A DNA stretch of 64,000 bases. Source: a candidate division KSB1 bacterium (GTDB lineage: Bacteria > Electryoneota > RPQS01). Below, piece after piece: positions 12,511 to 56,706 of this stretch. The translations under genes and the position numbers were made by a program. Position 1 is the first letter of the stretch. Every line of letters begins with the position of its first letter. The DNA is taken from positions 64,001 through 128,000 of the forward strand of contig JACRMR010000002.1 in assembly GCA_016214895.1 (NCBI GenBank). The letters run 5' to 3'. The notes beneath the pieces are model-generated. The model saw only the letters and a list, made by a program, of their open reading frames with translations. It was not told where the DNA came from and did not search any database.

Positions 12511-12590
12511 GCGAAACTTGAAATTTGAAACTTGAAACCTGAAAGCCGAATCCGATTCCGGCAGGGTCGGGAGACACCTGTTCGGGGTAC
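12511..12590. repeat. Composite dispersed repeat between the two tRNA genes
   Basis: An A-rich tract of repeated GAAACTTGAAATTTGAAA-like units is followed by a TCCGATTCCGGCAGGG-type core. The same two-part arrangement recurs elsewhere in the window. It fills most of the spacer between tRNA-Asp and tRNA-Val. Confidence 0.65.
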
Positions 12591-12601
12591 CAGCGACTTT
12601 G

Positions 12602-12676
12602 TGGGCGATGACGGATTCGAACCGCCGACATCCTGCGTGTAAAGCAGGCGCTCTGGACCAGCTGAGCTAATCGCCC
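12602..12676 (-). tRNA. trnV: tRNA-Val (anticodon TAC)
   Basis: A 75-base cloverleaf without encoded CCA: acceptor GGGCGAT pairs with ATCGCCC, anticodon stem CCTGC/GCAGG encloses TTTACAC (anticodon TAC), and the T loop is TTCGAAT. The final codons of the upstream membrane-protein gene overlap its first ten bases. Confidence 0.96.
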
Positions 12677-12963
12677 TTCGGTTGCCCCGCGCCTGCGTCC
12701 ACCGTCCGCTCATGTGCCATGATCGCGTACGGAAAAATCACAACGTACGCCGTCGTCAATAAGATCGGCGCCAACGTCAAACTCAAAAATCCGTCCGCCG
12801 GCGGCTGCGCCAAACAAACATAACCCACCAGCAACACCGCCAACCCGATCCCCAGCCAGAGATAGTTCTTGCGCGTAAACGGAACCTGAAACCGCGGAGC
12901 GGCCTTGGCCTTAGGTTTTTCGCCCGGCACCCCGTGCGACTTCACGCCGGGACGGGTCTTCAC
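12667..12963 (-). CDS. Small two-helix membrane protein, DUF3098-like
   Basis: 98 residues: a basic, proline-rich cytosolic N-terminus, then FTRKNYLWLGIGLAVLLVGYVCLA and a second helix LAPILLTTAYVVIFPYAIM. The F-T-x-K-N-Y start of the first helix and the two-helix layout resemble DUF3098 proteins of FCB bacteria; function unknown. Its stop codon lies inside the 5' end of tRNA-Val, ten bases overlapping, so mRNA and tRNA must be processed from one transcript or made separately. A near-consensus promoter is at 13063-13091 and a composite repeat occupies the leader. Confidence 0.75.
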   Translation of the reverse strand: MKTRPGVKSHGVPGEKPKAKAAPRFQVPFTRKNYLWLGIGLAVLLVGYVCLAQPPADGFLSLTLAPILLTTAYVVIFPYAIMAHERTVDAGAGQPKGD

Positions 12964-12990
12964 TTTGGGAGGAATGGGGAACTCCGAAGA

Positions 12991-13042
12991 GAAATGCAGA
13001 AAATCGAAAATTGAAAATCGAAATTCCGAACCCGACGGGCCC
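12991..13042. repeat. Composite dispersed repeat in the leader of the DUF3098-like gene
   Basis: GAAAATCGAAAATTGAAAA-type units followed by CCGAACCCGACGGGCCCGC. It lies between the promoter and the start codon and so is transcribed. Confidence 0.6.
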
Positions 13043-13062
13043 GCAATTCAATTTAGACACCT

Positions 13063-13091
13063 AATTTACGGAGTTTTCTCACGCGTGTCAA
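13063..13091 (-). promoter_or_regulatory. Promoter of the DUF3098-like gene and tRNA cluster
   Basis: On the minus strand consensus TTGACA (13091-13086) and TAAATT (13068-13063) are 17 bases apart. No terminator is seen before the two tRNAs, so all three are probably one transcript. Confidence 0.75.
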
Positions 13092-13093
13092 GA

Positions 13094-13130
13094 CGCGAGC
13101 GGCGAACCCAGTCCCGGCCCGCCGCTCGCG
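13094..13130. terminator. Hairpin downstream of the SppA fusion gene
   Basis: CGCGAGCGGCG and its exact complement enclose a 15-base loop, 36 bases past the stop codon of the minus-strand gene. No long T-run follows, so it may be an RNA-stabilising hairpin as well as a terminator. It abuts the next gene's -35 element. Confidence 0.6.
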
Positions 13131-13165
13131 ATTTAACGTAATGCTATGTAAACGTTTAGATTACG

Positions 13166-15715
13166 TTACTTGGCCGGCAAACCACCCAGCCCGGCCTCAT
13201 GGTCCTCGACCGGGATATCCTCCGGCGAAACCATGTACAGAGGCTTGCCTCCCGATGCACTCAACTTCCGCCAATAGCTTAGTTCGTAGTCCGGGGAGGT
13301 CGTCCCCTCCGGACGTTCGCGGCCGGTCACGAGAGTCGTTAGCGCGGTCAGCACCGATGGTCCACCGAAGAGCGCAGGGTTGATCCAGGCAGGCTTCGGA
13401 TACTCGACGAGCTTCACGCGTGCGTTTGGTTTCAGCTTCGCATCGGACTTCGCACGGGCAATGGCCGCCTCCATGCCGCCGATCTCATCAACCAGACCGT
13501 TCTCCAACGCGCGTTTACCGCTCCAGACGCGACCCTGACCAATGGAATCCACATAGCTCGCGGTAAGCAGCCGACCGTCCGCGACTTTCTCCGTGAATTG
13601 CTTGTACATGCCGCGAATCAAGCGCTCCACGCGCAAATGCTCGGTGCTGTCGAGATTGCGTTCGGGTACGGTCAGACCCAAGAACGGCAGGGTGATGCCG
13701 AAACCGACTTCCGCGTGCTGACCGACCTTAACGTAATCCGAAGTGAATCCGGTCTTACTGCCGAGGCCGTCATTCCATAGCCAGCCGCCGATCACCCCGA
13801 TGGAGCCGGTAACCGTAAACGGCGAACTGTAAATGCGGTCGGCGTTCATGCTGATCCAGTAGCCTCCGGAGCCCGCGACTCCGCCCTGCGTGACGATCAT
13901 CGGCTTGGAATCGCTGATGTTGTCCATCTCCGCCGCGACCAGATCGGAAGGCAACGCATCGCCGCCGGGAGAATCCGCGCGCAGTACCACGGCCTTGACG
14001 TGCTTGTTGTTGGCGAGCTTGCGCAACGTGCGCGAGGTGCTACGACCCTTGATGCCGGTGTCCATGGCGCACTCGCCGACTGCGTACACGACTGCGATTT
14101 CCGGCGGCTTGCCCCAATCCGGATCGGCATTGCGCGCCTTCTTTAACTCCGCGACGGAGAGCGTGCCGGGTTTGTCTCCGGTCAGGAGTTCGGCGAAATC
14201 CTTCACATCATCCCAGCGGCCCACCGTGTCCACAAGTCCGCCGGCCAGCGCCTCGTCGGGCGTGAAAATGCCCATCGTGTCCACGCCCGCTTCGATCTGC
14301 TCGCGAGTCAAACCGCGGGATGCCGCAATATCCGCCAGCCATTGCTCGTAGAAATCGGTGATCATCGTCAGCCGCTGCTCCTTGTCGGCGGCGGACATGT
14401 CCTTTCGGGAGAACGCTTCGAAGGCGGATTTGTAGGTGAAGAAACGCCACTCCTCCACGCCGAGGCCGATCTTCTCGAAGAAGCCCTTCCAGAACGTGCG
14501 GCCGGCGACGAAACCGGGAATCACGATACCGCCCTGCGGATCGATCCAGACGTAGTCGGCCACGCTGGCCAGATAATAGCCCGTCATCCCGACATTGTCA
14601 AAATAGATGTAAACCTGCTTCCCCGCCGACTTGAAATCGACCAACTTCTCGCGCAGCTCCCAAACCAGCTCGCGACCACCGTTGAAGCCGGAAAGATTGA
14701 GCGCGATGCCGCCGACCGTGGGATTCCGTTTGGCCTGTTCGATCGTTTGCAGCGTGGGCCAGAGCGGGATCTTGTAAGGCGCACCGATCTTCTCTTTCTG
14801 ATACGTCAACACGCCCTTCATACCGACCGTAACGAGTTTGTCATCCTTGGCGAAGTACTTTGCCGGGTCGATGGTGGGTTCCTGCTCGCCCACGCGCGCG
14901 ACGTAGCTGGTCGAGATGTGCTCCTGATCCTTATCGAAGTGCGGAACGACATTGAAGCCGAGGCCGTCGATCGACGCGCCGATACTCAGCGACAGTAGTT
15001 TGTCCTGCGACTCGGCATAGGGCTTCGACATTTTCAGCGCGGCGCGGAGGCCATTGAGCGGCTGCACTTCGACGCCGACGCCGTACTGCATCCGTTCGGG
15101 CGTGTTGAATTCGAAATGCCCCGCGGCCACGTCACCGAAAAAGGTGACACGATGATTGGAAAATGGCCGCAAGCCCACGTCGGCGGTCGCGTTGTAATCC
15201 AGTTTATCGAGCGTCAATGACGACGTGCCGCCCACGGAAACGAAGGGGAAGGGTCGATAGATGGAGCCCACCGTCAAATAGTGATCGCGGACTTCCTGAT
15301 ACGATCCGCCCTTGGACCAGTTGTACGAAAGACCCCAGTAGTTATCGGGGTCGCCGCCGCCCACGCCGAGCGAATAATCGTTCAGGCGATCAAAGAGCAG
15401 CGAATTGCGCGGATGCGGCGTGTATGTGCTGCGCATGGCGAAGCCGATCCCGTCCGTGCCCAGCGCGAGCGACCAGTCGTCGAGGCGCTTGGGATGTACA
15501 TTCCGGTCACTCCACGAGAGCGCGGCCTCCCATCCGCCCATGGCGCCCCACGCCGCGGGATTCCAGAACGCGCCCAGCGCGCCGCCGTATGTTCCCGGTG
15601 TGGACGCGAGAGCGTTCACGCCCGCTGAATAATCGGGAAGATAGGATGATTGGAGTTGCGCGAAGGCTGCCGTCGTCAGCAGCAGCGCGGCGAGGAGGAT
15701 GAGGATGCGATTCAT
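13166..15715 (-). CDS. sppA: Signal peptide peptidase SppA domain fused behind an outer-membrane-barrel-like domain
   Basis: About 849 residues from the ATG at 15715, which opens a signal peptide (MNRILILLAALLLTTAAFAQ); an in-frame ATG at 15805 is less likely. Residues about 20-285 are beta-rich and aromatic (PAAWGAMGGWEAALSWSD, WGLSYNWSKG, VGVEVQPLNGLRAALKMS), like PorV/UPF0164-type barrels. The rest is a full 67K-type SppA (S49) protease with both tandem domains. The catalytic dyad is present: Lys about 429 in FTYKSAF, corresponding to E. coli Lys209, and Ser about 616 in GSGGYWIS, corresponding to Ser409. SppA normally degrades cleaved signal peptides at the inner membrane, where it is held by a helix. 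Here that anchor is replaced by an exported barrel-like domain, so location may differ. Confidence 0.85.
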   Translation of the reverse strand: MNRILILLAALLLTTAAFAQLQSSYLPDYSAGVNALASTPGTYGGALGAFWNPAAWGAMGGWEAALSWSDRNVHPKRLDDWSLALGTDGIGFAMRSTYTPHPRNSLLFDRLNDYSLGVGGGDPDNYWGLSYNWSKGGSYQEVRDHYLTVGSIYRPFPFVSVGGTSSLTLDKLDYNATADVGLRPFSNHRVTFFGDVAAGHFEFNTPERMQYGVGVEVQPLNGLRAALKMSKPYAESQDKLLSLSIGASIDGLGFNVVPHFDKDQEHISTSYVARVGEQEPTIDPAKYFAKDDKLVTVGMKGVLTYQKEKIGAPYKIPLWPTLQTIEQAKRNPTVGGIALNLSGFNGGRELVWELREKLVDFKSAGKQVYIYFDNVGMTGYYLASVADYVWIDPQGGIVIPGFVAGRTFWKGFFEKIGLGVEEWRFFTYKSAFEAFSRKDMSAADKEQRLTMITDFYEQWLADIAASRGLTREQIEAGVDTMGIFTPDEALAGGLVDTVGRWDDVKDFAELLTGDKPGTLSVAELKKARNADPDWGKPPEIAVVYAVGECAMDTGIKGRSTSRTLRKLANNKHVKAVVLRADSPGGDALPSDLVAAEMDNISDSKPMIVTQGGVAGSGGYWISMNADRIYSSPFTVTGSIGVIGGWLWNDGLGSKTGFTSDYVKVGQHAEVGFGITLPFLGLTVPERNLDSTEHLRVERLIRGMYKQFTEKVADGRLLTASYVDSIGQGRVWSGKRALENGLVDEIGGMEAAIARAKSDAKLKPNARVKLVEYPKPAWINPALFGGPSVLTALTTLVTGRERPEGTTSPDYELSYWRKLSASGGKPLYMVSPEDIPVEDHEAGLGGLPAK

Positions 15716-15996
15716 GGCAGTCGTAGGTTCGGGTACTGAAATTGCGAAGTTTGTACGGGCGGAATCAAACGTGGGCCTGATGCGGAAGTGATCTTGCCGA
15801 GACACTCGGTCAGGGTGCCCGGACTGTGAGTAGAAAGTTACATGCTCGATGAAAATCGAAGCGCCACTTGCTCCGATTCCGGCCAGGCGAGGACGCCCGG
15901 CTCGGCGAGCGAAGCGACCCCCCTGCCCCCCTGTGAACGGAGGAGGGACCCGACGCAGATTCCGGCGGACTGAGGGCGGTCCGCTCGGCGAAACGC
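15716..15996. other. Intergenic region, 281 bases
   Basis: It contains a composite repeat (15850-15945) and otherwise nothing I can name. Confidence 0.5.
15850..15945. repeat. Composite dispersed repeat, well-conserved copy
   Basis: GAAAATCGAA, then CTCCGATTCCGGCCAGGCG and GGCTCGGCGAGC, then a C-rich tract. Its 38-base core differs at about two positions from the copy inside the SBBP gene near 54163-54200, direct evidence for a repeat family. Confidence 0.75.
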
Positions 15997-17589
15997 TTAC
16001 GGCAGAGTCAGCACGACGTCAATGCGACGATTGCGAGCACGGCCTTCCTTGGTGGCGTTGTCGGCAATCGGTTTGCTCTCGCCGAAACCCATCGCCGTCA
16101 AGGTGTCTGCCCGGACCTTCAAGGCATCGGCCAGCGCGGCGCCGACCGCCAGCGCGCGTTGTTCGGACAGCGTCTGGTTCACTTCCTCCTTGCCGTCGGA
16201 GTCCGTGTGACCTTCGACCGTGATCTTGGCGCCGGGAAACTTCTGCACCGCCGTCGCGACCTTGCCGATGATCTTGAGCTGTGATTTCTCAACGTCGCTC
16301 TGGCCGGCGGCGAAGTTGACCGCGTACACGCGAATGACCACGCGCCCCCGCTCATCCTGCAGGATCACCGCTTCACCGGGCTTGAACAGCTCCTGGGCCT
16401 GCGCAATGAGCTGCGTAAGCTCCGTGTTCTTCTGCAACGCGCCTTTCGACTCCGAGTGTTGACTCTCCAGCGTCTTGATCCGCTGCTCGAGTTGAATGAT
16501 CCGGTTCTGTGCGTCGGCGAGGCTGGTTTGCGCCTCCTGTAATGAGGCTTCAAGCGACGCATTCGTCGTCGCGAACTGCGCGGCCACGGCCTGTACGGAG
16601 TCGGTCGTCCGCGAGATCATCGTCTCGAATTGATCGTAGGTAGCTGCGCCGCCATGCGAAAAATCAAGCGTGCCGCCCAGTCTGCGCGCGATGCGCTCGA
16701 GCAGATCATCATAGGGGAGCAGCGCCGTCTCCCACGAGTTCTTCTGCCGCTCCGCGGTGTCCACATAACCCATCAGACCGGTGATGTGGTCGGCGACACC
16801 CGTGGCCAGGGTCGCATCGGTGCGGGCCTGATCCAAATTCTCCTGCGCCAGCGCGGCCTCCGCTCGACCCAGCGCTTGATGCGCGCGCAGCACGAGCGTG
16901 GGAACGAGCTTCTCCGCACCGCGCTGCTGCGCCGTCTCGATCCGCGAGCGGGATTCACCGAGAATCTGGGTGCGCATGGCCTCGCGGCGCAGCGCCCGAT
17001 AGGCACCGGCGATCTCCTGGATCTCGCCGTCAGGAATCGACTCGACTCCGCGCTCAATGTCGCGAACCGCGGCATACAGCTTGTCGTCCGCGCGCTTCCA
17101 GCCGTCCGGATTGAGCTGATCGGCATGGACGTCCGCCGCGGCCGTTCGTTCCGCAATGGCGGGACCCAGTTTCGAGCGAACGACCTTGGCGGACTCCCGC
17201 GCTTCCTTGACCTCGTCAAGGCAGCTCATGAGCTTGATGCGAATCAGCTCGCGTTCGCGCTTGCGCTCGATCAGCGAGCGAGCCTCGTCCAGCGCGTCCG
17301 CCGCGCGACCAAAATGCTTCGGCGAATACACGTCGAGTTGATCGGCGCGGCCTTTCTCAACGGCCTGCTCCGCTTGCCCGAGCAACTCCTCCTGGGTCTG
17401 GTCCGACGAGGCAGTCTGGGCGATTGCCGGGGCGTTCGGTCCCGTGGCGAAAAGGCACAGCGCCAGCGTTAGCAAGCCGGCACGCAAAATGAAGCGTGCC
17501 GCAGGACCGGTTTCAGCCACCCGGCGAAAGCTCAGCCCGGTGCGGTAGCAAACTTGAATCCGCGTGAGTCTCAATATGTTAGATTTCAT
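15997..17589 (-). CDS. OmpA-family protein with long periplasmic coiled-coil region
   Basis: 530 residues. An export signal lies near residues 33-58 after a basic N-terminus, so the true start may be downstream of the ATG used. Residues 60-300 are alpha-helical (DUF4398-like: AVEKGRADQLDVYSPKHFGRAADALDEA split across helices). About 340-400 form a coiled coil (AQNRIIQLEQRIKTLE). The last 120 residues are an OmpA-like peptidoglycan-binding domain with NFAAGQSDVE, ITVEGHTDSDGKEEVN and the GFGESKPIADNATKEGRARNRR region (NRRID end). Such proteins tether the outer membrane to peptidoglycan. It starts 15 bases after the preceding gene, so the two are co-transcribed. Confidence 0.85.
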   Translation of the reverse strand: MKSNILRLTRIQVCYRTGLSFRRVAETGPAARFILRAGLLTLALCLFATGPNAPAIAQTASSDQTQEELLGQAEQAVEKGRADQLDVYSPKHFGRAADALDEARSLIERKRERELIRIKLMSCLDEVKEARESAKVVRSKLGPAIAERTAAADVHADQLNPDGWKRADDKLYAAVRDIERGVESIPDGEIQEIAGAYRALRREAMRTQILGESRSRIETAQQRGAEKLVPTLVLRAHQALGRAEAALAQENLDQARTDATLATGVADHITGLMGYVDTAERQKNSWETALLPYDDLLERIARRLGGTLDFSHGGAATYDQFETMISRTTDSVQAVAAQFATTNASLEASLQEAQTSLADAQNRIIQLEQRIKTLESQHSESKGALQKNTELTQLIAQAQELFKPGEAVILQDERGRVVIRVYAVNFAAGQSDVEKSQLKIIGKVATAVQKFPGAKITVEGHTDSDGKEEVNQTLSEQRALAVGAALADALKVRADTLTAMGFGESKPIADNATKEGRARNRRIDVVLTLP

Positions 17590-17604
17590 GGAATACCAAA
17601 TGTT

Positions 17605-18813
17605 TCAACGAACGGGCAGCAGGACCGGTGCCAGACGGCGCGCGGGAATCCAGGCGGCGCGAAAGCCGACTTTTGCTCCAATAGTGTCAAAGCCGATCAG
17701 GGTCAGCGGAGTATCCGTCAGATCCCCTTCGAGATACGCACCTTTGCTCGGAACGCGAACGCGTGCGAAACAGGGCTTTTCACAGCCCCAGTCGGTTTGC
17801 GTCCAGAGGGAGGAATCGGCGACCCACTGGCGCGGATCAACGTATGCCTCCACGCCGTCCGGCGAGCCGACCTCGACCCAGTCCTTGATCCACGCTTTCA
17901 CAATCGTCGGGCGGCCCTTCGGTATCGAAAGAAAGCGCACGGTGTCACCCAGGCCCGGCGCCGTGAACTTGCGCAGGTAGAGCCAATCGGACTGGAGGGG
18001 AGCATACGTTCGCGTCGTCCAGGCGACCGTCTTCGTGGGCCGGTGAACGGCAACCGCTTCATCGGTACTCAGCACGATCAAGCCATGCCATTGCTGCATG
18101 GCGATGATGACCTCGCCCGGAATCCCGTTTTGGGCAAGATCAATCTCGAACAACTCGGGCGCGGTGGCGGAGCAACGAATCCATTTCGTCTTGACACGTT
18201 CACCCTGGCGCGTTTGCTCAAAGAGCGCATGAATTGTATCGCCAATGGCCGCGATCCAGACCGGCTTCAGTCCTTGCAAGGCCGGTGTGTAGATGCGCGC
18301 GAGTTGTTGCGTGGCCGGGTCGATCCAACCGATGCCGCCGGTCATCGCACCGGAACTGCGATCCCGCAATTGCAGGCCGAAGAACACGCGCGAGCGGGCG
18401 GCCGTGATGGGACCGGTCAGTTCGACCGGATCCAGGGCGGGACGATCCTCCGCGCTGACGAGTTCACTGAGCAATCGCATCGACTCCAAACCCGGGCTAA
18501 GCAGCGTGTAGGCAGAATCCGGAGCGGGAGGATGAATCAACAGAATCTCGCTGCCGCGAGCCACGTACTCTTCGCCGTTCAGCAGCACGCTGACGATCTC
18601 CGTGGGGGGGAGCGGAGGCGGCGAGACGGAGTCACGGGGCACGGTCAGCATCGCCTCCAAGCCGACGCTTAGGTAACCGCACCATCGCTCGCCACAAAAA
18701 TAGACGTGGCGGTCATCGTAGGAAATCTCGGGAAAGCGGAGAATCCACGGTTCGGCGGCCAGCGCGGGCCGAAGGGCGAATAAAACCAATAGCGAGCGGA
18801 GGAATCGATGCAC
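17605..18813 (-). CDS. Secreted protein of unknown function
   Basis: About 402 residues if the GTG at 18813 is used; the encoded start (VHRFLRSLLVLFALRPALAAEP) is a signal peptide. A longer reading frame upstream is translated repeat DNA and is rejected. The mature chain is beta-rich, with ISYDDRHVYFCGERWCGYL near its start, repeated tryptophan and aspartate-containing strands, and three widely spaced cysteines near the end (WTQTDWGCEKPCFARV). I recognise no family; a beta-propeller is possible. It is directly upstream of, and probably co-transcribed with, the coiled-coil OmpA protein. Confidence 0.6.
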   Translation of the reverse strand: MHRFLRSLLVLFALRPALAAEPWILRFPEISYDDRHVYFCGERWCGYLSVGLEAMLTVPRDSVSPPPLPPTEIVSVLLNGEEYVARGSEILLIHPPAPDSAYTLLSPGLESMRLLSELVSAEDRPALDPVELTGPITAARSRVFFGLQLRDRSSGAMTGGIGWIDPATQQLARIYTPALQGLKPVWIAAIGDTIHALFEQTRQGERVKTKWIRCSATAPELFEIDLAQNGIPGEVIIAMQQWHGLIVLSTDEAVAVHRPTKTVAWTTRTYAPLQSDWLYLRKFTAPGLGDTVRFLSIPKGRPTIVKAWIKDWVEVGSPDGVEAYVDPRQWVADSSLWTQTDWGCEKPCFARVRVPSKGAYLEGDLTDTPLTLIGFDTIGAKVGFRAAWIPARRLAPVLLPVR

Positions 18814-18826
18814 GGGGAACGGGGGG

Positions 18827-18884
18827 CGAAACTTGAAACTTGGAACTTGGAACTCAAAAACCAATGCAGGTGAGGCGGGCGAGC
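18827..18884. repeat. Composite dispersed repeat upstream of the secreted unknown
   Basis: GAAACTTGAAACTTGGAACTTG-like units (written here only in part: GAAACTTGAAACTTGG) followed by GGTGAGGCGGGCGAGCTCAG. It fills the 71-base gap between two minus-strand genes and extends the reading frame of the downstream one. Confidence 0.6.
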
Positions 18885-20075
18885 TCAGCATTCCTCCGGG
18901 GGGCGCGTATGGCGGAAGGAAAGCCAGAGCAGGATATCGTAAGTAATCTTCATGCCCGCGCCGAAGAATAACGGCGCACCGAGTGTTAGCGATTGCATGC
19001 ACGCCCCCGCGAAGGAGGGTGCCGCCGCCCACGCGCCGAGGCGTACCAGATGGGTGACACCGGAGGCGGTGGCGCGCTCCGCGGGTTTCACTACCGCCAT
19101 CACATAGCTTTGGCGGGTGGGAACGTCCATCTCAACCAAGCCCTCGCGAAGCAAAAAGAGCACGGCGGCGATGGGAAAGGTCGGAGCAATCGCGACGGTG
19201 ACCAGGAGCAGACTCGAAGGAATGTGCGTGAACACCATGGTGTTCACGAGTCCGATGCGCTTCGCGAGCCAGGCCGCGCCGAGATGCGAAACCGCGTTCA
19301 GCCCGCGCGCGGCGAAGAACAGCCCGCCGATGAGCTGCTCGTTGATGCCGAAGCGCTCGTAGAAAAAATACGAAACGAGCGAAGCCGTGAGAAAACCACC
19401 GCCCAGCCCGTCGAGCGCAAAGAGCGCCGAGATGCGAACCAGAATCCGGCGCGATTCCGGCGAGAGCCGCACACGAGTCGGCACGGGTGCGCTAACCGCC
19501 GCCGAGAGCCGCAGGTAGAGCAAACTGGAAATCAGCAGCAGGCAGGCGGCAGCGGCAAGCGCAAAACGAAGCGAGGTCAGTTCATCGAAATCGAAGAGCA
19601 ATCGAAGCAGCGAGGGCAGTCCCGCGAACAGGCTGCCGAGCGCGTGGCCGACGTCCTGATAGACGTTGTACCAGGCGAAGAGCTTCGTGCGACCGCGGTC
19701 ATCCGTCGCCGAGGGCAGCGCCGCCTGCTCGACAATCAGCGCGGCGCCGCGATCGCGGCCCATGCCGTTCAGCATGCCGATAAAGGCCGCGACAGCAATC
19801 AGACCGGGCTGCGAACCGAATGCAACCGCGATACCACCGACCGCTCCGAGCAGCGAGAGCGAGACCAGAAAACGGCGCGCACCGATGGTCCCGGCGGCCA
19901 GCGTCGCAAGCAGCGCCGCAACCGCGGCCCCGGCGAGTCCGCAGGCAATGAGCAGCCCGATCGTGGACGCGCCGAGACCGATCCGCGCGAAGTAAATCCC
20001 CAGCAACACGCCGACCATGCCCGTGGACATCGCACGGAGAAACGCGGTCGCGAGGAAGATGCGGCGGTCAGTCAC
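18885..20075 (-). CDS. Major facilitator superfamily transporter
   Basis: 396 residues with about twelve hydrophobic helices in two halves. Typical features are an N-terminal helix MTDRRIFLATAFLRAMSTG, the loop 2-3 region with GARRFLV, a cytosolic central loop rich in arginine (PVPTRVRLSPESRRILVR), and the second-half start ISALFALDGLGGGFL. The MDVPTRQSYVMAVV segment in the C-terminal half is common in putative drug or metabolite efflux MFS proteins. The substrate is unknown. It starts eight bases after the small membrane protein gene, with which it forms an operon. Confidence 0.85.
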   Translation of the reverse strand: MTDRRIFLATAFLRAMSTGMVGVLLGIYFARIGLGASTIGLLIACGLAGAAVAALLATLAAGTIGARRFLVSLSLLGAVGGIAVAFGSQPGLIAVAAFIGMLNGMGRDRGAALIVEQAALPSATDDRGRTKLFAWYNVYQDVGHALGSLFAGLPSLLRLLFDFDELTSLRFALAAAACLLLISSLLYLRLSAAVSAPVPTRVRLSPESRRILVRISALFALDGLGGGFLTASLVSYFFYERFGINEQLIGGLFFAARGLNAVSHLGAAWLAKRIGLVNTMVFTHIPSSLLLVTVAIAPTFPIAAVLFLLREGLVEMDVPTRQSYVMAVVKPAERATASGVTHLVRLGAWAAAPSFAGACMQSLTLGAPLFFGAGMKITYDILLWLSFRHTRPPEEC

Positions 20076-20083
20076 GCCGCGAA

Positions 20084-20410
20084 TCAGCTAAACATGGCCG
20101 GGCCCGGGGGAACCGCGAAGGCGCGCTCCAGAATCGAGCGCAAGACGAAGACCAGCACCGCGGCGAGAATCGTGCGAAAGAAGCCGATGCCGAGACCAAC
20201 CCAGAGCACGAACAAGTTGAACATGAACAGGATTCCGCTCGTGAGCCAGAAGTCACCGATGACGTACTTGACGCCGCCGGAGACGAACGCCATGAGCAGG
20301 ACCACGAGGAAGATGCGGATCAGGCCCGGAGCTTCCTCGCGACGCTTGGCGACAAAGCTGCAGGCCAGATAATAGAGCAGCGCTTCGACGATGAGTTGAA
20401 GGAAGGGCAT
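20084..20410 (-). CDS. Small membrane protein of unknown function
   Basis: About 108 residues from the ATG at 20410 (MPFLQLIVEALLYYLACSFV). An upstream in-frame ATG at 20464 adds 18 residues encoded by a composite repeat, so it is rejected. Three to four hydrophobic helices are visible, for example GLIRIFLVVLLMAFVSGGV and RTILAAVLVFVLRSILERAF. No family recognised. It is the first gene of an operon with the MFS transporter and could be an accessory subunit. Confidence 0.65.
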   Translation of the reverse strand: MPFLQLIVEALLYYLACSFVAKRREEAPGLIRIFLVVLLMAFVSGGVKYVIGDFWLTSGILFMFNLFVLWVGLGIGFFRTILAAVLVFVLRSILERAFAVPPGPAMFS

Positions 20411-20540
20411 GGGAATAGAAATACGGAAATGGAGAAACGCAGAAATGCGGAAATCCGACTCCAACAGGATCGAGGGACCCTGTACGGCGGCAGCTCGCGA
20501 TTCCGGCAGAGACCGAAGGCTCCGTTCGGGGCGCGCGGAG
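20411..20540. repeat. Composite dispersed repeat upstream of the small membrane protein
   Basis: GAAATACGGAAATGGAGAAA-type units, then CGCGATTCCGGCAGAG and a TTCGGGGCGC end. It occupies the whole gap before the T9SS cargo gene and offers a false upstream start to the next gene. Confidence 0.6.
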
Positions 20541-20551
20541 CGGAAACGTTC

Positions 20552-21805
20552 CTACGGCAGGTAGAGCAACTTGGTGGTTGTGCTGAGTGCTGCGCCGTGC
20601 AGCCGGGCAAAATAGACGCCCGAAGCGAGGCCGCTGAAGTCGAGCATCGTCGTCGTCAAGGCGCTCATAAACCGGTGCTCACTGCTCACGATGCGTCCGG
20701 TGAGATCGAATACATCTAGCGCGTAATCGCCCGGGACCGGCACCGACAATGTGAGCGTCACGCTGGGGTTGAACGGATTCGGAAACGCTTGCAGCGAGAG
20801 AGATTGCGGCAGCGTGGAATGCGGGTTGTCGTCAACCACGAGCGGAGTGTAAGCGAAGATCGATAACCCTGCGGAGGTCGATGCCACAACCAGCGGCTGT
20901 CCGCCGCCGTGCGCGAGCGTCAGTCCGGTGGATGTGGAGGGCAGACCCGCCGCCGCCACAAACTCGGGCGTGTCACCGCGCTGATCGAGATACTGCAAAC
21001 TGCCCGTGGCCAGTGCCACGAACGAAAAGCCGTTGCCACCCGCGACCGCCCGAATCGCCGAAGGAACCGAGTGAATTCCGGCCAGTGAGTAGTTTGACGC
21101 GCGAACAGCAACCGCGTCCGCGCCGCGAGCATAGGTAACGTAACTCCCGGCGATATCATGCGGAGTCATTTCCTGCGAGCCGTACTCGCCCGCCGCCGTC
21201 AACCGATAGCGCGTCGCGCCCGCGCTGTCATAATGCTGCACGCTGAGGGCGAAGGCGCCGGTTTGACTGCCCACGTAGAGCTTTGTGCCTTGCGGATCCC
21301 AGCGGACCGAGCTCGAGATGCGACCGAAAGTGGTCAGGAGATGCGGCTGCAGCGGGTTGCGGACGCCGATCAGCGAAACGTTGGCCGACGTCGCCACGGC
21401 CACGAGGGTGTCGAGGACGACCGCGTCACGGACTTGCCCGGCGAGGGCCAGATTCGTGCGCCAGACCGGATCGGAGGGATCCGTTGATTCAATAATCACC
21501 AACCCGGTGGCACCGCCTGCGCAATAGGCAAAGCCGCCGCTGACATCCACGGTGGCGAGGGCGGGGACGCCCGGCGCAACCTGGCCGATAATCATGGGCG
21601 AGGCCGGATCGCTGACATCCACGACGGCGAAATTGTTGTTTCCTACGCAATACACCCGGTCTGCGACCCCCCGCAACCCGGTTCGCGGGGTCATGTTCAG
21701 GCTGCCCAAGGGCTCCAGCGGCTGCGCAACTGCGAACTGAAGTGCGGTCGTCAGGGCCAGAACTCCGGTCAACAACAGGCGATTGTGGGCGATTCTCCGC
21801 GGCAT
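20552..21805 (-). CDS. Secreted beta-propeller protein with type IX secretion C-terminal sorting domain
   Basis: About 417 residues. The ATG at 21805 has GGAG eight bases upstream and begins a signal peptide (MPRRIAHNRLLLTGVLALTTA then LQFAVAQ, shown in parts). The body has LVIVD-type repeats, recognisable as FAVVDVSDPASPMIIG and GLVIIESTDPSDPVW, which build beta-propellers. The last 85 residues are a sorting domain starting LQAFPNPFNPSVTLTLSVP and containing VFDLTGRIV and ASGVYFARL, which T9SS uses to carry cargo across the outer membrane. Ligand unknown. A well-placed promoter is at 21831-21859. Confidence 0.85.
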   Translation of the reverse strand: MPRRIAHNRLLLTGVLALTTALQFAVAQPLEPLGSLNMTPRTGLRGVADRVYCVGNNNFAVVDVSDPASPMIIGQVAPGVPALATVDVSGGFAYCAGGATGLVIIESTDPSDPVWRTNLALAGQVRDAVVLDTLVAVATSANVSLIGVRNPLQPHLLTTFGRISSSVRWDPQGTKLYVGSQTGAFALSVQHYDSAGATRYRLTAAGEYGSQEMTPHDIAGSYVTYARGADAVAVRASNYSLAGIHSVPSAIRAVAGGNGFSFVALATGSLQYLDQRGDTPEFVAAAGLPSTSTGLTLAHGGGQPLVVASTSAGLSIFAYTPLVVDDNPHSTLPQSLSLQAFPNPFNPSVTLTLSVPVPGDYALDVFDLTGRIVSSEHRFMSALTTTMLDFSGLASGVYFARLHGAALSTTTKLLYLP

Positions 21806-21830
21806 TAGGGGACTCCGTTCGACTACCGGA

Positions 21831-21859
21831 AACGTACTCATTTCTGACGCGAAATGCAA
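21831..21859 (-). promoter_or_regulatory. Promoter of the T9SS cargo propeller gene
   Basis: On the minus strand TTGCAT (21859-21854) and TACGTT (21836-21831), 17 bases apart, lie 26 bases upstream of the start codon. Confidence 0.6.
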
Positions 21860-21891
21860 GCGTAAGGGGTGTGCTCTGCTGAGTTTGCAGC

Positions 21892-21920
21892 TTGCATGCC
21901 GTCACAGCTTTTCGTATATT
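21892..21920 (+). promoter_or_regulatory. Promoter of the DMT transporter operon
   Basis: TTGCAT and TATATT, 17 bases apart. It faces away from the minus-strand promoter 33 bases to its left, so one short intergenic region drives both directions. Confidence 0.65.
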
Positions 21921-22006
21921 CGGCATCACAATGGTGCCTATCCACCGCAAATCAGCAATTCCCAAGCCACTCCGACGGCGCCTCGTGACCAGTCCGATGC
22001 CGAGCT

Positions 22007-22897
22007 GTGCGTGAGTCCGAGCGCGCCCGTGCCGCGCTGCTCCCGGCCGTGATGGCGGTCTCTTCGGCCGCGATCTTCGTGCGGATGGCCGATGCCCCGG
22101 CGATGGCGACGGCGTTCTGGCGAGGTGCGATCGCGGGGGCATGCTTTCTACCGTTATTGCTGCTGCCGAAGTTCCGCGCGGAACTCAGAAATCTGCCGGG
22201 GAAGACCGCGGGACAAATTGCGGCCGCGACCATGGTCATCGCGCTGCATCAAATTTGCTTCATCTCGAGCCTGAAGTTCACTTCCGTCGCCGCGGCCACG
22301 TTTTTGACCTCCATGCAGCCGATGTTCACCGCGTTCTTCGGTTGGGTGTTGCTGAAGGAGGCCGTGAGCGCGCGGGCGCTGCTGGCGATCTGCGGCGCGT
22401 TGGGCGGTGTGGCGCTGATCGCGCTGTCGAGCGGCGGCGAATTCGCCATGACGGGAAATCTGTTAGCGATCGCGGCGGCGATCCTCGCATCGCTGTACTC
22501 GATTGCCGCGAGAAAGCTGCGCCAGAACACGCCACTCGTCCCGTACATGACGACGGTACACATTTCAGGAACCCTCTTCCTGTTCGTGCTCACACAGCTG
22601 TTCGCGATTCCGCTGACCGGGTTCAGCAACGCGAGCTGGACGAGCCTGGCGCTGCTAGGATTGGTGCCGACGCTGATCGGACATTCGCTGCTCACGTATT
22701 CGATCGGGCATCTGCGGGCCTTTGTGGTCAACGCCGCCGTGCTGGGCGAACCGGTGGGGGCGACAATTCTGGCGGCGATCTTCATGCGTGAAATACCGCC
22801 GCTGCTGACGCTGCTCGGCGGGGCCGTCATTGTCGGCTGCATTCTCTGGATCGTGCTCGAAAAGGACGTCCCGGTCGTGGAAACGCAGATGGACTGA
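22007..22897 (+). CDS. EamA/DMT-family transporter
   Basis: 296 residues with ten hydrophobic helices in two EamA repeats. Features are an opening LLPAVMAVSSAAIFVRMADAP, the FWRGAIAG motif, LKFTSVAAATFLTSMQPMFTAFFGWVLLKE (key: ATFLTSMQP and WVLLKE) and, in the second half, LRAFVVNAAVLGEPVGATILAAIFMREIPP (key: VLGEPVGA). Such carriers export or import amino acids, nucleotides or other metabolites. The start is a GTG at 22007, without a strong ribosome binding site. The stop is three bases before the ABC ATPase start, so it belongs to the metal ABC/MtgA operon. Confidence 0.85.
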   Translation: MRESERARAALLPAVMAVSSAAIFVRMADAPAMATAFWRGAIAGACFLPLLLLPKFRAELRNLPGKTAGQIAAATMVIALHQICFISSLKFTSVAAATFLTSMQPMFTAFFGWVLLKEAVSARALLAICGALGGVALIALSSGGEFAMTGNLLAIAAAILASLYSIAARKLRQNTPLVPYMTTVHISGTLFLFVLTQLFAIPLTGFSNASWTSLALLGLVPTLIGHSLLTYSIGHLRAFVVNAAVLGEPVGATILAAIFMREIPPLLTLLGGAVIVGCILWIVLEKDVPVVETQMD

Positions 22898-22900
22898 AAC

Positions 22901-23686
22901 GTGAACGAGACCAAATCCATCATTGAGATTGAAGAACTGACCTTTCGCTACGGCGAGGCTGCCGTGCTGCGGGAGGTCTCCCTGCGCGTGGAAGCGGGTG
23001 AATTCCTCGGGATCATCGGCCCCAACGGCGGTGGGAAGACGACGCTCCTGAGAATTCTGCTGGGACTCGAGACGGAATACGACGGTCGAGTCGAGATGTT
23101 CGGCGAGACTCCGCACCGAAGTTTCGGTTGGCGCGCGCGGACCGGCGTGGTGCCGCAAACGCGCGAATTGCCGCCGCGATATCCCGCGCTGGTGCGTGAC
23201 GTCGTGGAAATGGGAACCACCTCGCGGAAATCGCCCGCGCTCTCACGTGGCGAACGCCGCGAGCGAGTTGACGAGGCGCTGACGCTCGTGGGGATCGAGT
23301 CGCTCGCCAACCGGCCGCTGTGGGAACTCTCCGGAGGTCAACGACAACGTGTGTTTATTGCGCGGGCGCTGGCGTGCCGGCCCCAACTGCTGCTGCTCGA
23401 CGAGCCGACCGTGGGCGTGGATCAACAAGGGCAAGACCTGCTGCTCTCGTGGATCGCGAAGTGGAGAAGCGAACACGGCATGGCGGTCGTACTCGTGTCT
23501 CACGATGTCGGCGTAATCGCACCGCTGGCGGATCGACTGGCCTGCCTCAATATTCTATTGCACTTCCATGATCGCCCGGACAAACTGACGGGCGAGGCGA
23601 TCGAAAAAGCCTACGGCTGTCCTGCCGAAGTGATCTTCCACGATCACGGTGTTCCCCATCGCGTGCTGCGGAAGCATCGACACTGA
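22901..23686 (+). CDS. ATP-binding protein of a zinc/manganese-type ABC transporter
   Basis: 261 residues with all ABC motifs: Walker A GPNGGGKTT, the signature LSGGQRQR, Walker B LLLLDEPTVGVD and the switch histidine in VVLVSHDVGV. Overall layout (EIEELTFRYGEAAVLREVSL start, short C-terminus with VIFHDHGVPHRV) matches the Zn/Mn/Fe importer group (ZnuC/MntB). The histidine-rich tail may contact metal but this is a guess. GTG start. Its stop TGA overlaps the permease ATG (TGATG). No substrate-binding lipoprotein is nearby. Confidence 0.9.
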   Translation: MNETKSIIEIEELTFRYGEAAVLREVSLRVEAGEFLGIIGPNGGGKTTLLRILLGLETEYDGRVEMFGETPHRSFGWRARTGVVPQTRELPPRYPALVRDVVEMGTTSRKSPALSRGERRERVDEALTLVGIESLANRPLWELSGGQRQRVFIARALACRPQLLLLDEPTVGVDQQGQDLLLSWIAKWRSEHGMAVVLVSHDVGVIAPLADRLACLNILLHFHDRPDKLTGEAIEKAYGCPAEVIFHDHGVPHRVLRKHRH

Positions 23687-24492
23687 TGAGTCCGATGGCC
23701 ATGCTCACACTGCCCTTCGTGCAGCGCGCCTTGTTGGCCGCGACGTTGATGGCCTTGACGGGCGGACTGCTGTCCTTCTTCGTCGTGCAGCGCAAACTGG
23801 CCTTCATGGGCCACGGGATCGCGCACTCGATGATTGCGGGCGTGGCGATCGGGCTGGTGTTCGATCTGCCGGTAGTTTGGCCCGCCCTGGCGGTGGCGTT
23901 AATCTGTGCTGCCGGAATCGGCTGGGTTGCCAGAAACGCGAAGGTCTCCGAGGACAGCGCGATCGGCATACTGCTCTCGGCGGCGTTGGCCGGTGGACTG
24001 CTGCTGATTTCGCTCCGACGCGGATTCCTGACGCATCTCGAAAGCTACCTGTTCGGCAGCATCGTCGCGGTCATGCCCGGCGACCTGCTGGTGCTGGGTC
24101 TGCTGGCCGCGGTTACGATCGGTATCCTGGGTAAATACTGGCGAATCATCTCATTCTATGCGTTTGATCCGGAAGGCGCGCAAGTCGCCGGATATCCGGT
24201 CGAGTTGTTCCGGTACGCGCTGCTGGTCTTGTTGGCGGTGACGATTGCCGTGGTCATGAAGATTGTGGGAATTCTGCTGGTGGGAGCGTTTCTGGTGATT
24301 CCCGCCGCGGCGGCGGCCTATTGGTCCCCGCGCGCGATAAGTGTCGTGCTGATTTCCGCCGGGATCGCCCTGGTCTGCGCCGTGGGGGGGATGTTCGCCG
24401 CGATTGCATTCAATCTCGCCGCCGGCCCGGCCATCGTCGCCGCGTTGGTTGCCGGGTTTGCCGTGAGCCGGCTGGTGGGACGGTATCGCTGA
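23686..24492 (+). CDS. Permease of a zinc/manganese-type ABC transporter (ABC-3 family)
   Basis: 268 residues with about eight or nine transmembrane helices. Family markers are LPFVQRALLAATLMALTGGLLSFFVVQRKLAFMGHGIAHSMIAGVAIG (key: RKLAFMGHGIAHS), DSAIGILLSAALAGGLLL and the C-terminal KIVGILLVGAFLVIPAAAA. It pairs with the preceding ATPase to import a divalent metal ion across the inner membrane. The start overlaps the ATPase stop by one base. Metal specificity cannot be decided from sequence by eye. Confidence 0.9.
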   Translation: MSPMAMLTLPFVQRALLAATLMALTGGLLSFFVVQRKLAFMGHGIAHSMIAGVAIGLVFDLPVVWPALAVALICAAGIGWVARNAKVSEDSAIGILLSAALAGGLLLISLRRGFLTHLESYLFGSIVAVMPGDLLVLGLLAAVTIGILGKYWRIISFYAFDPEGAQVAGYPVELFRYALLVLLAVTIAVVMKIVGILLVGAFLVIPAAAAAYWSPRAISVVLISAGIALVCAVGGMFAAIAFNLAAGPAIVAALVAGFAVSRLVGRYR

Positions 24493-24497
24493 CGACG

Positions 24498-25247
24498 ATG
24501 GGCTGGATTTTCAAACGGCTGATCTGGCTGATCGCGATAATGGCGGTGCTGGGGATTGTCGTGACTACATTACAGGTGGCCTTGCTGAAGGTGCAAAATC
24601 CGCGCAGTACGGCGTGGATGAGAATGCGGGCCCGGGAAGCGAAACATGACAATAAGCCGCTCGAAATCAAGCAAACGTGGGTGTCGCTGACGGAGATTCC
24701 CAAGGTAGTGCAACTGGCGGTTGTCGCGGCGGAGGACGACCGCTTCTATGCGCATTCCGGCTTCGACTGGGAGGCGATCCGCACGGCGCTGAAACACAAC
24801 GAAAAGAACGGCAAGGTCAAACGCGGCGGCAGCACAATTACCCAACAACTGGCCAAGAATCTGTTTCTGTCGCCGAGTCGCAGCTATCTGAGAAAAGCTC
24901 GCGAAGCGCTAATCACCTTCAATCTCGAACTGCTGCTGTCGAAGGACCGGATCCTCGAGCTCTATTTGAATGTGATTGAGTTTGGACCGGGCGTCTTTGG
25001 AATCGAGGAAGCGGCGCAGTATCATTACCATGTCCACGCGCGGCAGCTTGCACTCGATCAGGCCTGTCGATTGGCGGCGATCATCCCCTCGCCACGGCGA
25101 TACAAGGTCAATGGACCCTATGTGGCAAGACGGGCCGCGATCATCCGCCGGATCGTTGGCGGACCGGATGAAGACCAAGGACAGAAATCAGAAATGAGGA
25201 ATGAGAAAGCGGAGGCGGAGAACCAGGTACCGACGGTCATTCAGTAA
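24498..25247 (+). CDS. mtgA: Monofunctional peptidoglycan glycosyltransferase MtgA (GT51)
   Basis: 249 residues. One N-terminal transmembrane helix (WIFKRLIWLIAIMAVLGIV) is followed by a GT51 domain that polymerises lipid II into glycan strands on the periplasmic face. Conserved motifs are AAEDDRFYAHSGFDW with the catalytic Glu, RGGSTITQQLAKNLFL, RKAREALI and ELYLNVIEFGPGVFGIEEAA (both parts seen). No transpeptidase domain follows, so it is monofunctional. The ATG at 24498 is five bases past the permease stop. The last 20 or so residues (DQGQKSEMRNEKAEAENQ) are encoded by a composite repeat and are atypical for the family. Confidence 0.9.
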   Translation: MGWIFKRLIWLIAIMAVLGIVVTTLQVALLKVQNPRSTAWMRMRAREAKHDNKPLEIKQTWVSLTEIPKVVQLAVVAAEDDRFYAHSGFDWEAIRTALKHNEKNGKVKRGGSTITQQLAKNLFLSPSRSYLRKAREALITFNLELLLSKDRILELYLNVIEFGPGVFGIEEAAQYHYHVHARQLALDQACRLAAIIPSPRRYKVNGPYVARRAAIIRRIVGGPDEDQGQKSEMRNEKAEAENQVPTVIQ

Positions 25248-25308
25248 ATTGCAGTTGAGTGCTGATTCCGGCGGGGTGGGGGCACCAAGCTCGGCAGAAA
25301 TTAGAAGA
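25179..25308. repeat. Composite dispersed repeat forming the 3' end of mtgA
   Basis: GACAGAAATCAGAAATGAGG-type tract within the mtgA frame, then, past the stop, TGCTGATTCCGGCGGGG and AAGCTCGGCAG. It shows the repeat family extending a coding sequence. Confidence 0.55.
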
Positions 25309-53804: not shown

Positions 53805-53833
53805 GCAGGGTTAGCCGCGGTGGCTAACCCTGC
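53805..53833. terminator. Hairpin of the GGGTTAGCC family, copy 1
   Basis: GCAGGGTTAGCC and its exact complement enclose a five-base loop. No T-run follows, so termination would be weak. Same stem core as at 56644 and 58492. Confidence 0.55.
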
Positions 53834-53870
53834 GTCACGTGGAGAGATGTTCTTCGTCAAGGAGCTACCG

Positions 53871-56513
53871 ATGATCATACCAAGGCCGGACCAGGGGATT
53901 CCGCTGTCGCCGTTCACGCTCTGCCTGCTCACGGCTTTCGTGGCGGTGCCGTCGATCAGCGATGTGTTGGGAACTCCCCGCCCGCCGGTCCCTGCCCCTC
54001 CTTCGATCTGCTTCGTGGCCAACGAGGGGCAGTGGGACGAGCCGTTTGCCTTCAAGCTGAGTACCGGTGGCACGACGGTCTGGGTGACGGAGGCGGGGTT
54101 GACGATTGACATTCAAGAAAATCGAAAATCGAAAATTGAAAATCGAAATGCCGAAGTCCGAGACCGATTCCGGCCAGGCGGGGACGCACGGCTCGGCGAG
54201 CTGTACCCCCCCTACCCCCCCAATCGAGTTGGGGGGGAGAAGTCGGGTCTCCCCCCATATTCTCTGGGGGGATTAAGGGGGGAAAAGGAGCCCCAGCCAG
54301 CAAAGGTTCGTGGTCACGTCTTGAAAATGAACTTTGTGAATCGGCTCTCCCCCCACTCTGTGGGGGGACTAAGGGGGGTTGACAAGTTGCCCAGCTACTC
54401 GAACTACTTCTTGGGCCGCGACTCGTGCAAGTGGCGGAGCAGAGTCGGGCATTACCAGCGCGTGATCGCCGAGAATGTGTGGAATGGAATCGATGTGGAG
54501 TTCGTTGCCGTAGGGGCCGTGTCCGCGACCGGCCCGGGCATCAAGACGAACTACCATGTTCATCCCGGTGCCGATGTTTCGCAGATTCAGATCGAGTATG
54601 AGGGTCTCGACGCGCCGCTGCGAGTTGACGGTTCAGGCAATCTCGTGCTCGCAACATCACTGGGTGATCTGCAGGAGCAAGCGCCATGGGCCTATCAGAT
54701 CGATGGCCGTCAGCAGCGCGATGTGGGCGTGCAGTTCGCTGTGCTTGACGCGAATCGGTACGGCGTGATTGCTTCGTTGGTCGACGCGAGCAAGGAATTG
54801 GTGATTGACCCGTTACTTTACGGGAGCTACTTCGGCGGATTCGGACCGGATTCTGGTTACAACATTGAAGTCGGCCCACGAGGATCTATCTTCGTCGGCG
54901 GGCAATCAAGTTCGGACAATTTTCCCACCACTCCGGGCGCTTACGAAGGGACGAACCCGCATGGAGCCGCGTGCTTTGTGAGCAAGTTCACTGGTGATTT
55001 GGATACGCTCATTTACTCAACGTACGTGGGAGCACAAGTTGGTCCCGGCGGCACGCCCGAGTCATTTCAGACTGCGCTGGTTGTCGACAGCAATGGCAGG
55101 GTGTGGGGCGGTGGCGGGACGTCCTCATGGGGCTGGCCGGTCACAACCGATGCCTATGACTCGACGTTTGCAGATGTCTACCGTGAAGGTTACTTATACC
55201 GATTGAATGAGAGCGGAAGCGCGCTGGAGTATTGTTCGTATCTGGGCGGGTCAGGCCTGGACGAAATCATCAGTTTGGCTTTGGATCCGTCGGGTCAAAC
55301 TTTGTGGATTGCCGCCGACGCGGCGGTTTCACCGGACTTCCCCGTGACCGAAAACGCATTGTATCCTAATCCACCGGGAGAAAACGATGTCATTGTCGGG
55401 AGATTTGGCGTGTCAACTCTGTCAATGGAGTACCTGAGTTACCTCGGTGGCGAGAATCAGGACGCGCCAACAGGGATACTGCCACTTACTTCAGAATCGG
55501 CTTGGATTTGGGGATGGAGCCAGAGCGCGGACTTCCCTACGACGCCGAATGCCATTCGTACCGAGGCGGCCGGTCATGATGGATTCGTAACCTTGTGGAA
55601 TACCGCAGCAAATGAGCTGGTGTACAGCTCGTTGGTTGGTGGTGCGGCCTATGATATTGCGTGGGCGCTGTCCCCATTTGACGACGGGCGACTGGCGATT
55701 GTCGGGCAAACCTCTTCGCCGGACTTTCCGATTACGGCCAATGCGCCCGATACAACACTCAATCAGACGGCAAACGCGTTCGTCCTGGTACTTAACCCTG
55801 AGATTGGAATCACGGGCTCCACACTGCTGTCCGGCACAGCGGCCAATGGAGGGGATCTCGCGCGCGCAGTTCGGGTGACGGACGACGAAATCACCGTAAT
55901 CGGCGAGACGTACGATTCTGATTTTCCGGTGACCCCCGGTGCCGAAGACACCGTCCTGAACAATTCGGGAAACTCGGGATTAAGCGATCTGTTCTTTGCG
56001 CGCTTGAACGTCGATGTGACTGAGCTACAGTACTCCACATTTTTCGGCGGTAACCACGTCGAGTATTACGGCAATGCATATTTCGTGACCGCCGACACAT
56101 TCTGGGTAACAGGACAGACCGGCTCCACCGATTTTCCGTGTTCGCCTAACGCATATCAATCAGAGGGTGGTCCGTTGGGCGACGTGTTCATCATGAAATA
56201 CGCGTTTCCGCCGTCCGACGCTGTGTCGGAACGACCCTATCCTGCAATCCTGAGCGATCTGAATCTGCTTGTTTATCCCAACCCGTTTAACGGTCAGGCA
56301 CAGATTGCGTATGGTCTATCGCAGAGCCAGAACGCAAACATAGTCGTTTATGACCTGCTGGGCCGACGGGTGAATTCCGTGAACATGGGCTGGCAGTCGG
56401 CCGGAACGCATCATACATCCCTGTCATTGAAATCAGAACCTTCGGGTATCTACACCATCCGACTTCAAGCAGGCACCCAGGCGGCAATCCAGAAGGCCGT
56501 CTTGGTCCGATGA
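53871..56513 (+). CDS. Secreted SBBP-repeat protein with DUF7948-like N-domain and T9SS sorting domain
   Basis: About 880 residues. The ATG at 53871 has GGAG at good spacing; an upstream frame to 53790 runs through a hairpin and is rejected. The export signal is PLSPFTLCLLTAFVAVPSIS. The DUF7948-like part (ANEGQWDEPFAFKLSTGGTTVWVTEAG, key: EGQWDEPF) is interrupted at about residues 82-170 by repeat-derived sequence, then resumes (YQRVIAENVWNGIDVEF, NYHVHPGADVS). SBBP beta-propeller repeats follow (YSTYVGAQ, YLGGSGLDEI, YLGGENQDAP, FFGGNHVEYYGNAYFV). The end (LVYPNPFNGQAQIAYGLS, VYDLLGRRV, PSGIYTIRL) is a type A T9SS sorting domain. Probably a cell-surface or secreted adhesive protein. Confidence 0.85.
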   Translation: MIIPRPDQGIPLSPFTLCLLTAFVAVPSISDVLGTPRPPVPAPPSICFVANEGQWDEPFAFKLSTGGTTVWVTEAGLTIDIQENRKSKIENRNAEVRDRFRPGGDARLGELYPPYPPNRVGGEKSGLPPYSLGGLRGEKEPQPAKVRGHVLKMNFVNRLSPHSVGGLRGVDKLPSYSNYFLGRDSCKWRSRVGHYQRVIAENVWNGIDVEFVAVGAVSATGPGIKTNYHVHPGADVSQIQIEYEGLDAPLRVDGSGNLVLATSLGDLQEQAPWAYQIDGRQQRDVGVQFAVLDANRYGVIASLVDASKELVIDPLLYGSYFGGFGPDSGYNIEVGPRGSIFVGGQSSSDNFPTTPGAYEGTNPHGAACFVSKFTGDLDTLIYSTYVGAQVGPGGTPESFQTALVVDSNGRVWGGGGTSSWGWPVTTDAYDSTFADVYREGYLYRLNESGSALEYCSYLGGSGLDEIISLALDPSGQTLWIAADAAVSPDFPVTENALYPNPPGENDVIVGRFGVSTLSMEYLSYLGGENQDAPTGILPLTSESAWIWGWSQSADFPTTPNAIRTEAAGHDGFVTLWNTAANELVYSSLVGGAAYDIAWALSPFDDGRLAIVGQTSSPDFPITANAPDTTLNQTANAFVLVLNPEIGITGSTLLSGTAANGGDLARAVRVTDDEITVIGETYDSDFPVTPGAEDTVLNNSGNSGLSDLFFARLNVDVTELQYSTFFGGNHVEYYGNAYFVTADTFWVTGQTGSTDFPCSPNAYQSEGGPLGDVFIMKYAFPPSDAVSERPYPAILSDLNLLVYPNPFNGQAQIAYGLSQSQNANIVVYDLLGRRVNSVNMGWQSAGTHHTSLSLKSEPSGIYTIRLQAGTQAAIQKAVLVR
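54115..54378. repeat. Composite repeat with G/C-palindromes inserted in frame in the SBBP gene
   Basis: Order: AATCGAAAATCGAAAATTG tract, the conserved CCGATTCCGGCCAGGCG / GGCTCGGCGAGC core, then two copies of a palindromic C6/G6 element (CTCTGGGGGGATTAAGGGGGG-like and TCTGTGGGGGGACTAAGGGG). Total length around 264 bases, a multiple of three, so the frame is kept. Confidence 0.75.
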
Positions 56514-56643: not shown

Positions 56644-56670
56644 CAGGGTTAGCCACTCCGGCTAACCCTG
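56644..56670. terminator. Hairpin of the GGGTTAGCC family, copy 2
   Basis: CAGGGTTAGCC and its complement around a five-base loop, followed by CTTAATT. It lies between the convergent SBBP and Cys-rich genes. Confidence 0.65.
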
Positions 56671-56706
56671 CTTAATTCCTATGCGACCCTATGACTCGGC
56701 CCGACG

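Follow-up and report, generated by a model that had tools for sequence, protein, structure and literature searches.

REP elements have been described with the tags GT[AG]G and CGTC, and atypical hairpins are on record for TnpA_Y1 subclasses 2.6 and 3 (PMC3733652, PMC6006769). Contacts of E. coli TnpA_REP to the GTAG motif involve Q95 and R104, among other residues (PMC6006769; PMC8266576). The IS200/IS605 enzymes work on the lagging-strand template (PMC6006769), and hints of a strand preference have come from REP arrays in P. fluorescens (PMC3116915) and from a palindrome in Caldithrix (PMC5317091). Here we analyzed a stretch of 64,000 nucleotides (G000:C2:64001-128000, hereafter the window) from a genome of 3.21 Mb in 26 contigs. 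The repeat cores dispersed in it are very probably REP elements, short hairpin-forming DNA repeats whose spread is attributed to RAYTs, single-strand transposases of the Y1/HUH type related to IS200/IS605 TnpA.

The first-pass annotation had described a dispersed family with an A-rich tract at seven places in the window and a core at most of them. All seven places were present: GAAANTTGAAA at up to 1 mismatch had 13 matches in the window against 2.4 expected, and GATTCCGGC had 11 against 1.7. The 38-base core reported as common to two copies (15873 and 54164) was recovered at 95% identity. Genome-wide, the frequency of the core was not near random, with 89 matches against 0 for a reversed control, and the A-rich repeat had 242 matches against 3 for its control. 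The proposed layout of the copies held in part: a hairpin accompanied the tract at five of the seven places, whereas 12991 and 18827 consisted of the A-rich tract alone, and three further tracts (15850, 20411, and 25179), although present, were short or irregular rather than clean heptads.

The tracts, the hairpins, and the DUF7948 gene listed here all lay on the + strand. Between tRNA-Asp and tRNA-Val, motif matches placed a heptad tract (GAAACTTGAAATTTGAAACTTGAAACCTGAAA) at 12513..12544, next to a GCAGGGTC-stem hairpin, its 3′ arm damaged, at 12554..12587 (covariance model, 26.8 bits). Heptad tracts without a REP were matched by motif at 12999..13023, with no model match nearby, and at 18828..18848. 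A short A-rich remnant (GAAAATCGAAG, motif match) at 15851..15861 stood before a hairpin of stem type GCC(A)GGCG at 15875..15907 (46.7 bits) and a hairpin of stem type GCGGACTG at 15958..15990, which is unit 2 of a direct array and has a canonical hairpin fold (46.0 bits). An irregular tract seen in the sequence (GAAATACGGAAATGGAGAAACGCAGAAATGCGGAAATCC, 20416..20456) preceded a decayed hairpin at 20499..20531 (20.2 bits, E 0.015), whose folding was no better than that of shuffles. Another such irregular tract (25184..25210) lay within a transglycosylase-like gene, at its 3′ end, with a hairpin of stem type GCGGGGTG at 25264..25296 (31.3 bits); the A-rich stretch at 25180-25247 appears to encode a C-terminal extension of the protein. 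The last tract (54117..54148, motif match) and hairpin (54166..54198, 38.1 bits) lay inside a DUF7948 domain gene with a Por_Secre_tail sorting domain (53868..56513, domain matches). This gene is bracketed by a 28-nt inverted repeat (93%; 53805-53832 and 56644-56671), each arm of which is palindromic. Two further repeat families, C-rich hairpins (CCCCCC...GGGGGG) and CCCATCTAACTTCCCC hairpins, occurred among the REPs in these arrays, at 54203-54380 and at many genome loci.

The core proved to be a 33-nt hairpin composed of GATTCCG, an 8-bp stem, a loop of 3-4 nt, the complementary stem arm, and CGGCG, with an unpaired T or G interrupting the 3′ side of the foot. In the window the covariance model matched six such hairpins, each of them on the + strand (E 1.6e-8 to 0.015); its genome-wide total was at least 156 copies, a lower bound given that the search scored a limited number of candidates. 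The pattern TTCCG-stem-loop-stem′-N-CGG occurred 203 times in 600 kb against 2-10 times for seven control motif pairs; these 600 kb are stretches around copies, and the counts are therefore REP-enriched rather than genome densities. The core had been described as varying less than the A-rich unit. In it, only the outer motif was constant: TTCCGG and CGG were invariant across an alignment of 34 variants (3 rows from relatives, with the last unpaired base filled in as G and lying outside the pair counts), whereas the stem took many different sequences. The stem covaried: pairing held in 98.1% of cells, double changes numbered 70 where shuffles gave 19.7, and covariation reached 0.521, whereas slid structures gave 0.132 at most. 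Folded singly as DNA, the window copies were at best slightly better than shuffles, and worse at 20499 and 54166, as expected of short, partly decayed copies, so we relied on covariation instead. In an Rfam search the two tRNAs were the sole matches, and no known RNA family covered the repeats. Of 209 REPs, 31 lay in coding DNA, where 78% were expected, making the family predominantly extragenic. In length, copy number, and imperfect palindromy, these repeats fall within the 20-40 nt, high-copy range of REPs, and a constant foot, covarying variable stems, and an unpaired base are REP anatomy.

No Y1_Tnp gene lies within the window, in line with the first reading that no transposase was visible there. 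That reading had also hinted at a RAYT/TnpA_REP-type enzyme, and four Y1_Tnp genes of RAYT type (Y1/HUH) were found in other parts of the genome, with hairpins of one stem type, particular to each gene, on its flanks. The RAYT on C7 has GCAGGGAA-stem hairpins, inverted on the upstream side and direct on the downstream side; the one on C3 has about 20 GGCACTTG hairpins around the gene, and those on C8 and C12 are flanked by GGCATGTC and GGCAGGTG hairpins, respectively. All four RAYTs of this genome, and many in relatives, adjoin cognate hairpins, with the stem types of the window as the exception. Hairpins of the same stem occurred on both sides of RAYTs in G001, G002, G003, G004, G008, G009, G010, G011, and G012; other RAYTs, such as those of G005 and G007, lacked this arrangement. 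A script counted 40 of 72 RAYT-like proteins with a six-base stem word common to the hairpins of both flanks, which is a raw count without a matched null, and the script missed some pairs visible by eye. The cut-off of NCBIfam NF047646 (REP_Tyr_transpos) was passed by the C7 protein and one G001 protein, one per tested clade, and the RAYT copies of this genome have both the DHLH/DHIH (HUH) and Y...NP motifs. A sequence comparison of the C7 RAYT with solved structures gave no match at E 0.01, and the closest named RAYT relatives were from assemblies that carry the labels candidate division KSB1 and 'Candidatus Puniceispirillum'. For the stem types of the window this genome has no cognate RAYT, so any mobilization of their copies would be past or in trans; stem GCAGGGTC (window 12554) flanks a RAYT of G011. 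With stem types that lack a local RAYT, and with some hairpins decayed, the window copies are largely relics.

In the RAYT tree, 16 proteins from this order and one KSB1-labelled MAG formed a single clade, A (support 1.0), and seven other RAYTs of the family formed clade B (0.956). The clade A signature is mostly W[RQNHL]..[YF][DN]D, together with DH[LIVF]H; the residue after W was variable, and a hand alignment to the motif put P, L, I, or some other residue at the R104 position. The feet of clade A hairpins are of TTCCG type, with CGAGCGG/CGATGGG variants; in clade B hairpins, CTAG or CTAA adjoins the stem. GT(A/G)G is absent at the 5′ foot, which is GATTCCG and lies outside the GTAG superfamily; nor is there a CGTC tag as in the CGTC superfamily, and a RAYT is associated. 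Compared with part of all described REPs, the TTCCG foot looks like a new tag class. Of 61 genomes, 13 had covariance model matches, and 12 of these belong to this order: our genome, G001-G005 and G007-G010 in the family, G011 and G012 in the order, and G018 in the phylum (18 matches). The model had no match in G006 or in the 47 other genomes searched, and G006 has no Y1_Tnp gene either. G007, with seven Y1_Tnp genes but only three hairpin matches, counts against a REP/RAYT reading, as do the missing GTAG tag, the window stem types that lack a cognate RAYT here, and the results below on strand bias in a second genome and on insertion boundaries.

We then compared orientation with strand composition, using the third-position GC skew (GC3) of element-free genes called by a simple script. 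REPs were oriented + and − in 70 and 13 cases where the skew was positive and in 29 and 97 where it was negative; for heptads the counts were 27 and 6, and 2 and 17. Stretches agreed with the skew in 31 of 38 cases in this genome (binomial p=1e-4), a test in which copies in arrays and neighboring stretches are not independent. In a second genome, G011, 9 of 13 stretches agreed, which is not significant. REPs in co-directional gene pairs were antisense in 94 cases and sense in 30, and where gene direction and skew conflicted, REPs followed the skew (47:1 and 30:3). Insertion into single-stranded DNA at replication forks would predict an orientation that tracks GC3 skew. On the assumption that the G-rich strand is the leading one, the REP sequence would lie in the lagging-strand template.

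The copy noted inside a gene at 54115 is in frame in the DUF7948/Por_Secre_tail gene. The insert, of about 100 nt, comprises heptads, the hairpin, and a first C-rich stretch, and is absent from five paralogues in the same genome. A second C-rich stretch, encoding PHSVGGLRG, is probably older, judging from its presence in these paralogues and its absence from the G008 and G009 homologues. No target-site duplication was evident at the 54115 insert, and no precise insertion boundary was resolved. A truncated DUF7948 paralogue on C25 (L280, about 519-737, minus strand) shares the left flank of the window copy, the heptads, and CCGATTCCGGCC; past CCGATTCCGGCC it has a different stem and then unrelated DNA. 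Comparison of this sequence with window 54166 places a rearrangement breakpoint inside the REP, and its origin may lie in recombination, strand transfer, or gene conversion.

The first-pass annotation had suggested that the A-rich tract and the core behave as if they were two modules spreading together. Such a composite element would account for the same-strand arrangement of heptads and REPs within 150 bp (24:3) and for their joint presence in the 54115 insert. It would also fit the position of the heptads, which come before REPs more often than after: among 44 heptad tracts, a same-strand REP followed within 200 nt downstream in 14, lay upstream in 3, and was on the opposite strand in 3. However, intergenic co-occurrence had an odds ratio of 2.1 (p=0.06), with no length class significant, most REPs have no nearby heptad, the hairpins flanking RAYTs occur without heptads, two of the seven A-rich tracts in the window have no hairpin, and the second heptad-plus-REP copy, on C25, is a paralogue with a shared left flank rather than an independent insertion. 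Joint spread was therefore not established, and we regard a composite unit as unlikely. We treat the A-rich heptad as a separate family of 7-bp tandem repeats, often just upstream of a REP, for which growth by replication slippage would be the likeliest mechanism. One heptad array (L079, G000:C20:347953-348383) extends over about 430 bp of mostly perfect GAAACTT units.

If the hairpins were instead immobile terminators or mRNA-stabilizing structures under selection, their mostly intergenic position would follow, and REPs elsewhere do affect mRNA ends (PMC3733652). This is highly improbable given the excess of antisense hairpins in co-directional gene pairs, the constant outer motif with swapped stems, the RAYT genes adjoined by stem type, the occurrence of hairpins in long arrays and inside genes, and the lack of a T-run after the window hairpins. 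It is just as improbable that single hairpins are fragments of a larger MITE. An element of 160-162 bp with CGGGCTTGTTGC...CAACAAGCCCG ends and two inverted REPs 51-52 nt apart does exist at about nine loci, but most REPs, including 6 of 6 in the window, lie outside such units, and neighboring REPs within 150 bp of each other are direct in 77 of 92 pairs. The window copies do not form the inverted REP pairs with a conserved spacer that make up a mobile REPIN, though some copies elsewhere do. In the MITE-like element, the CGGGCTTGTTGC...CAACAAGCCCG ends are terminal inverted repeats and the two REPs differ in stem type; it was located at L065:11404-11565, L066:9255-9416, L071:4678-4839, L075:2448-2607, L082:5965-6126, L086:4981-5142, L087:4333-4492, L093:5186-5346, and L095:8332-8491.

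On the REP/RAYT reading, a RAYT made elsewhere in the genome would recognize the folded hairpin in exposed single-stranded DNA, then cut and rejoin it, copying REPs to new and mostly intergenic sites, where copies would arise singly, as direct arrays, or as inverted pairs. We infer both the enzymatic cleavage and copying of REPs and the use of the lagging-strand template. A more specific scenario, which we put forward only tentatively, is that a lineage-specific RAYT subclass dropped the GTAG guide and reads a GATTCCG...T/G-CGGC frame with swappable stems, that copies are confined to the lagging-strand template, and that REPs serve as breakpoints exchanging stem and flank, as between window 54166 and C25.

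Among known systems, Xanthomonas and Nostoc heptameric repeats (PMC4692102) resemble the A-rich tracts in being 7-nt tandem and mostly intergenic, but their units are rich in G and in Xanthomonas have no preferred strand, whereas the GAAANTT units here follow strand skew. Rickettsia palindromic elements and other intragenic REPs (PMC3733652) likewise add a peptide by in-frame insertion of a palindrome into a coding gene; in the paralogue set described here, a protein has gained a peptide segment from a REP. The Rickettsia repeats have been assigned to the CGTC REPs, which have no dedicated transposase (PMC3733652), and their sequence is unrelated. Inverted REP pairs with a conserved 51-52 nt spacer are shared with REPINs (PMC3116915). 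Unlike REPINs, the paired REPs here differ in stem and sit inside a 160-162 bp unit bounded by additional terminal inverted repeats; most REPs are single or in direct arrays. Among the TnpA_Y1 subclasses of Quentin et al. 2018 (PMC6006769), the RAYTs are most like 2.4, with the Y---NP class 2 signature, yet the clade A signature matches no row of their Table 1 and there is no GTAG tag. A further parallel is with gammaproteobacterial REPtrons (PMC2817692, PMC8266576), which share high-copy, short, imperfect, mostly intergenic palindromes with an unpaired stem base, RAYT genes with inverted cognate REPs at their flanks, and several RAYT-REP pairs per genome. They differ in lineage, in foot (GT(A/G)G, against TTCCG or CGAGCGG/CGATGGG-like here), and in the GTAG-contacting positions of E. 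coli, WQ/WE and R104, which the present RAYT clade does not conserve. The many natural RAYT-hairpin pairs should help in working out how RAYTs choose their targets, and the skew-following orientation offers a genome-scale test of REP entry at replication forks. The finding is a REP/RAYT variant with its own tag and its own RAYT clade, which extends these systems to a little-known, uncultured bacterial lineage with a different recognition tag.
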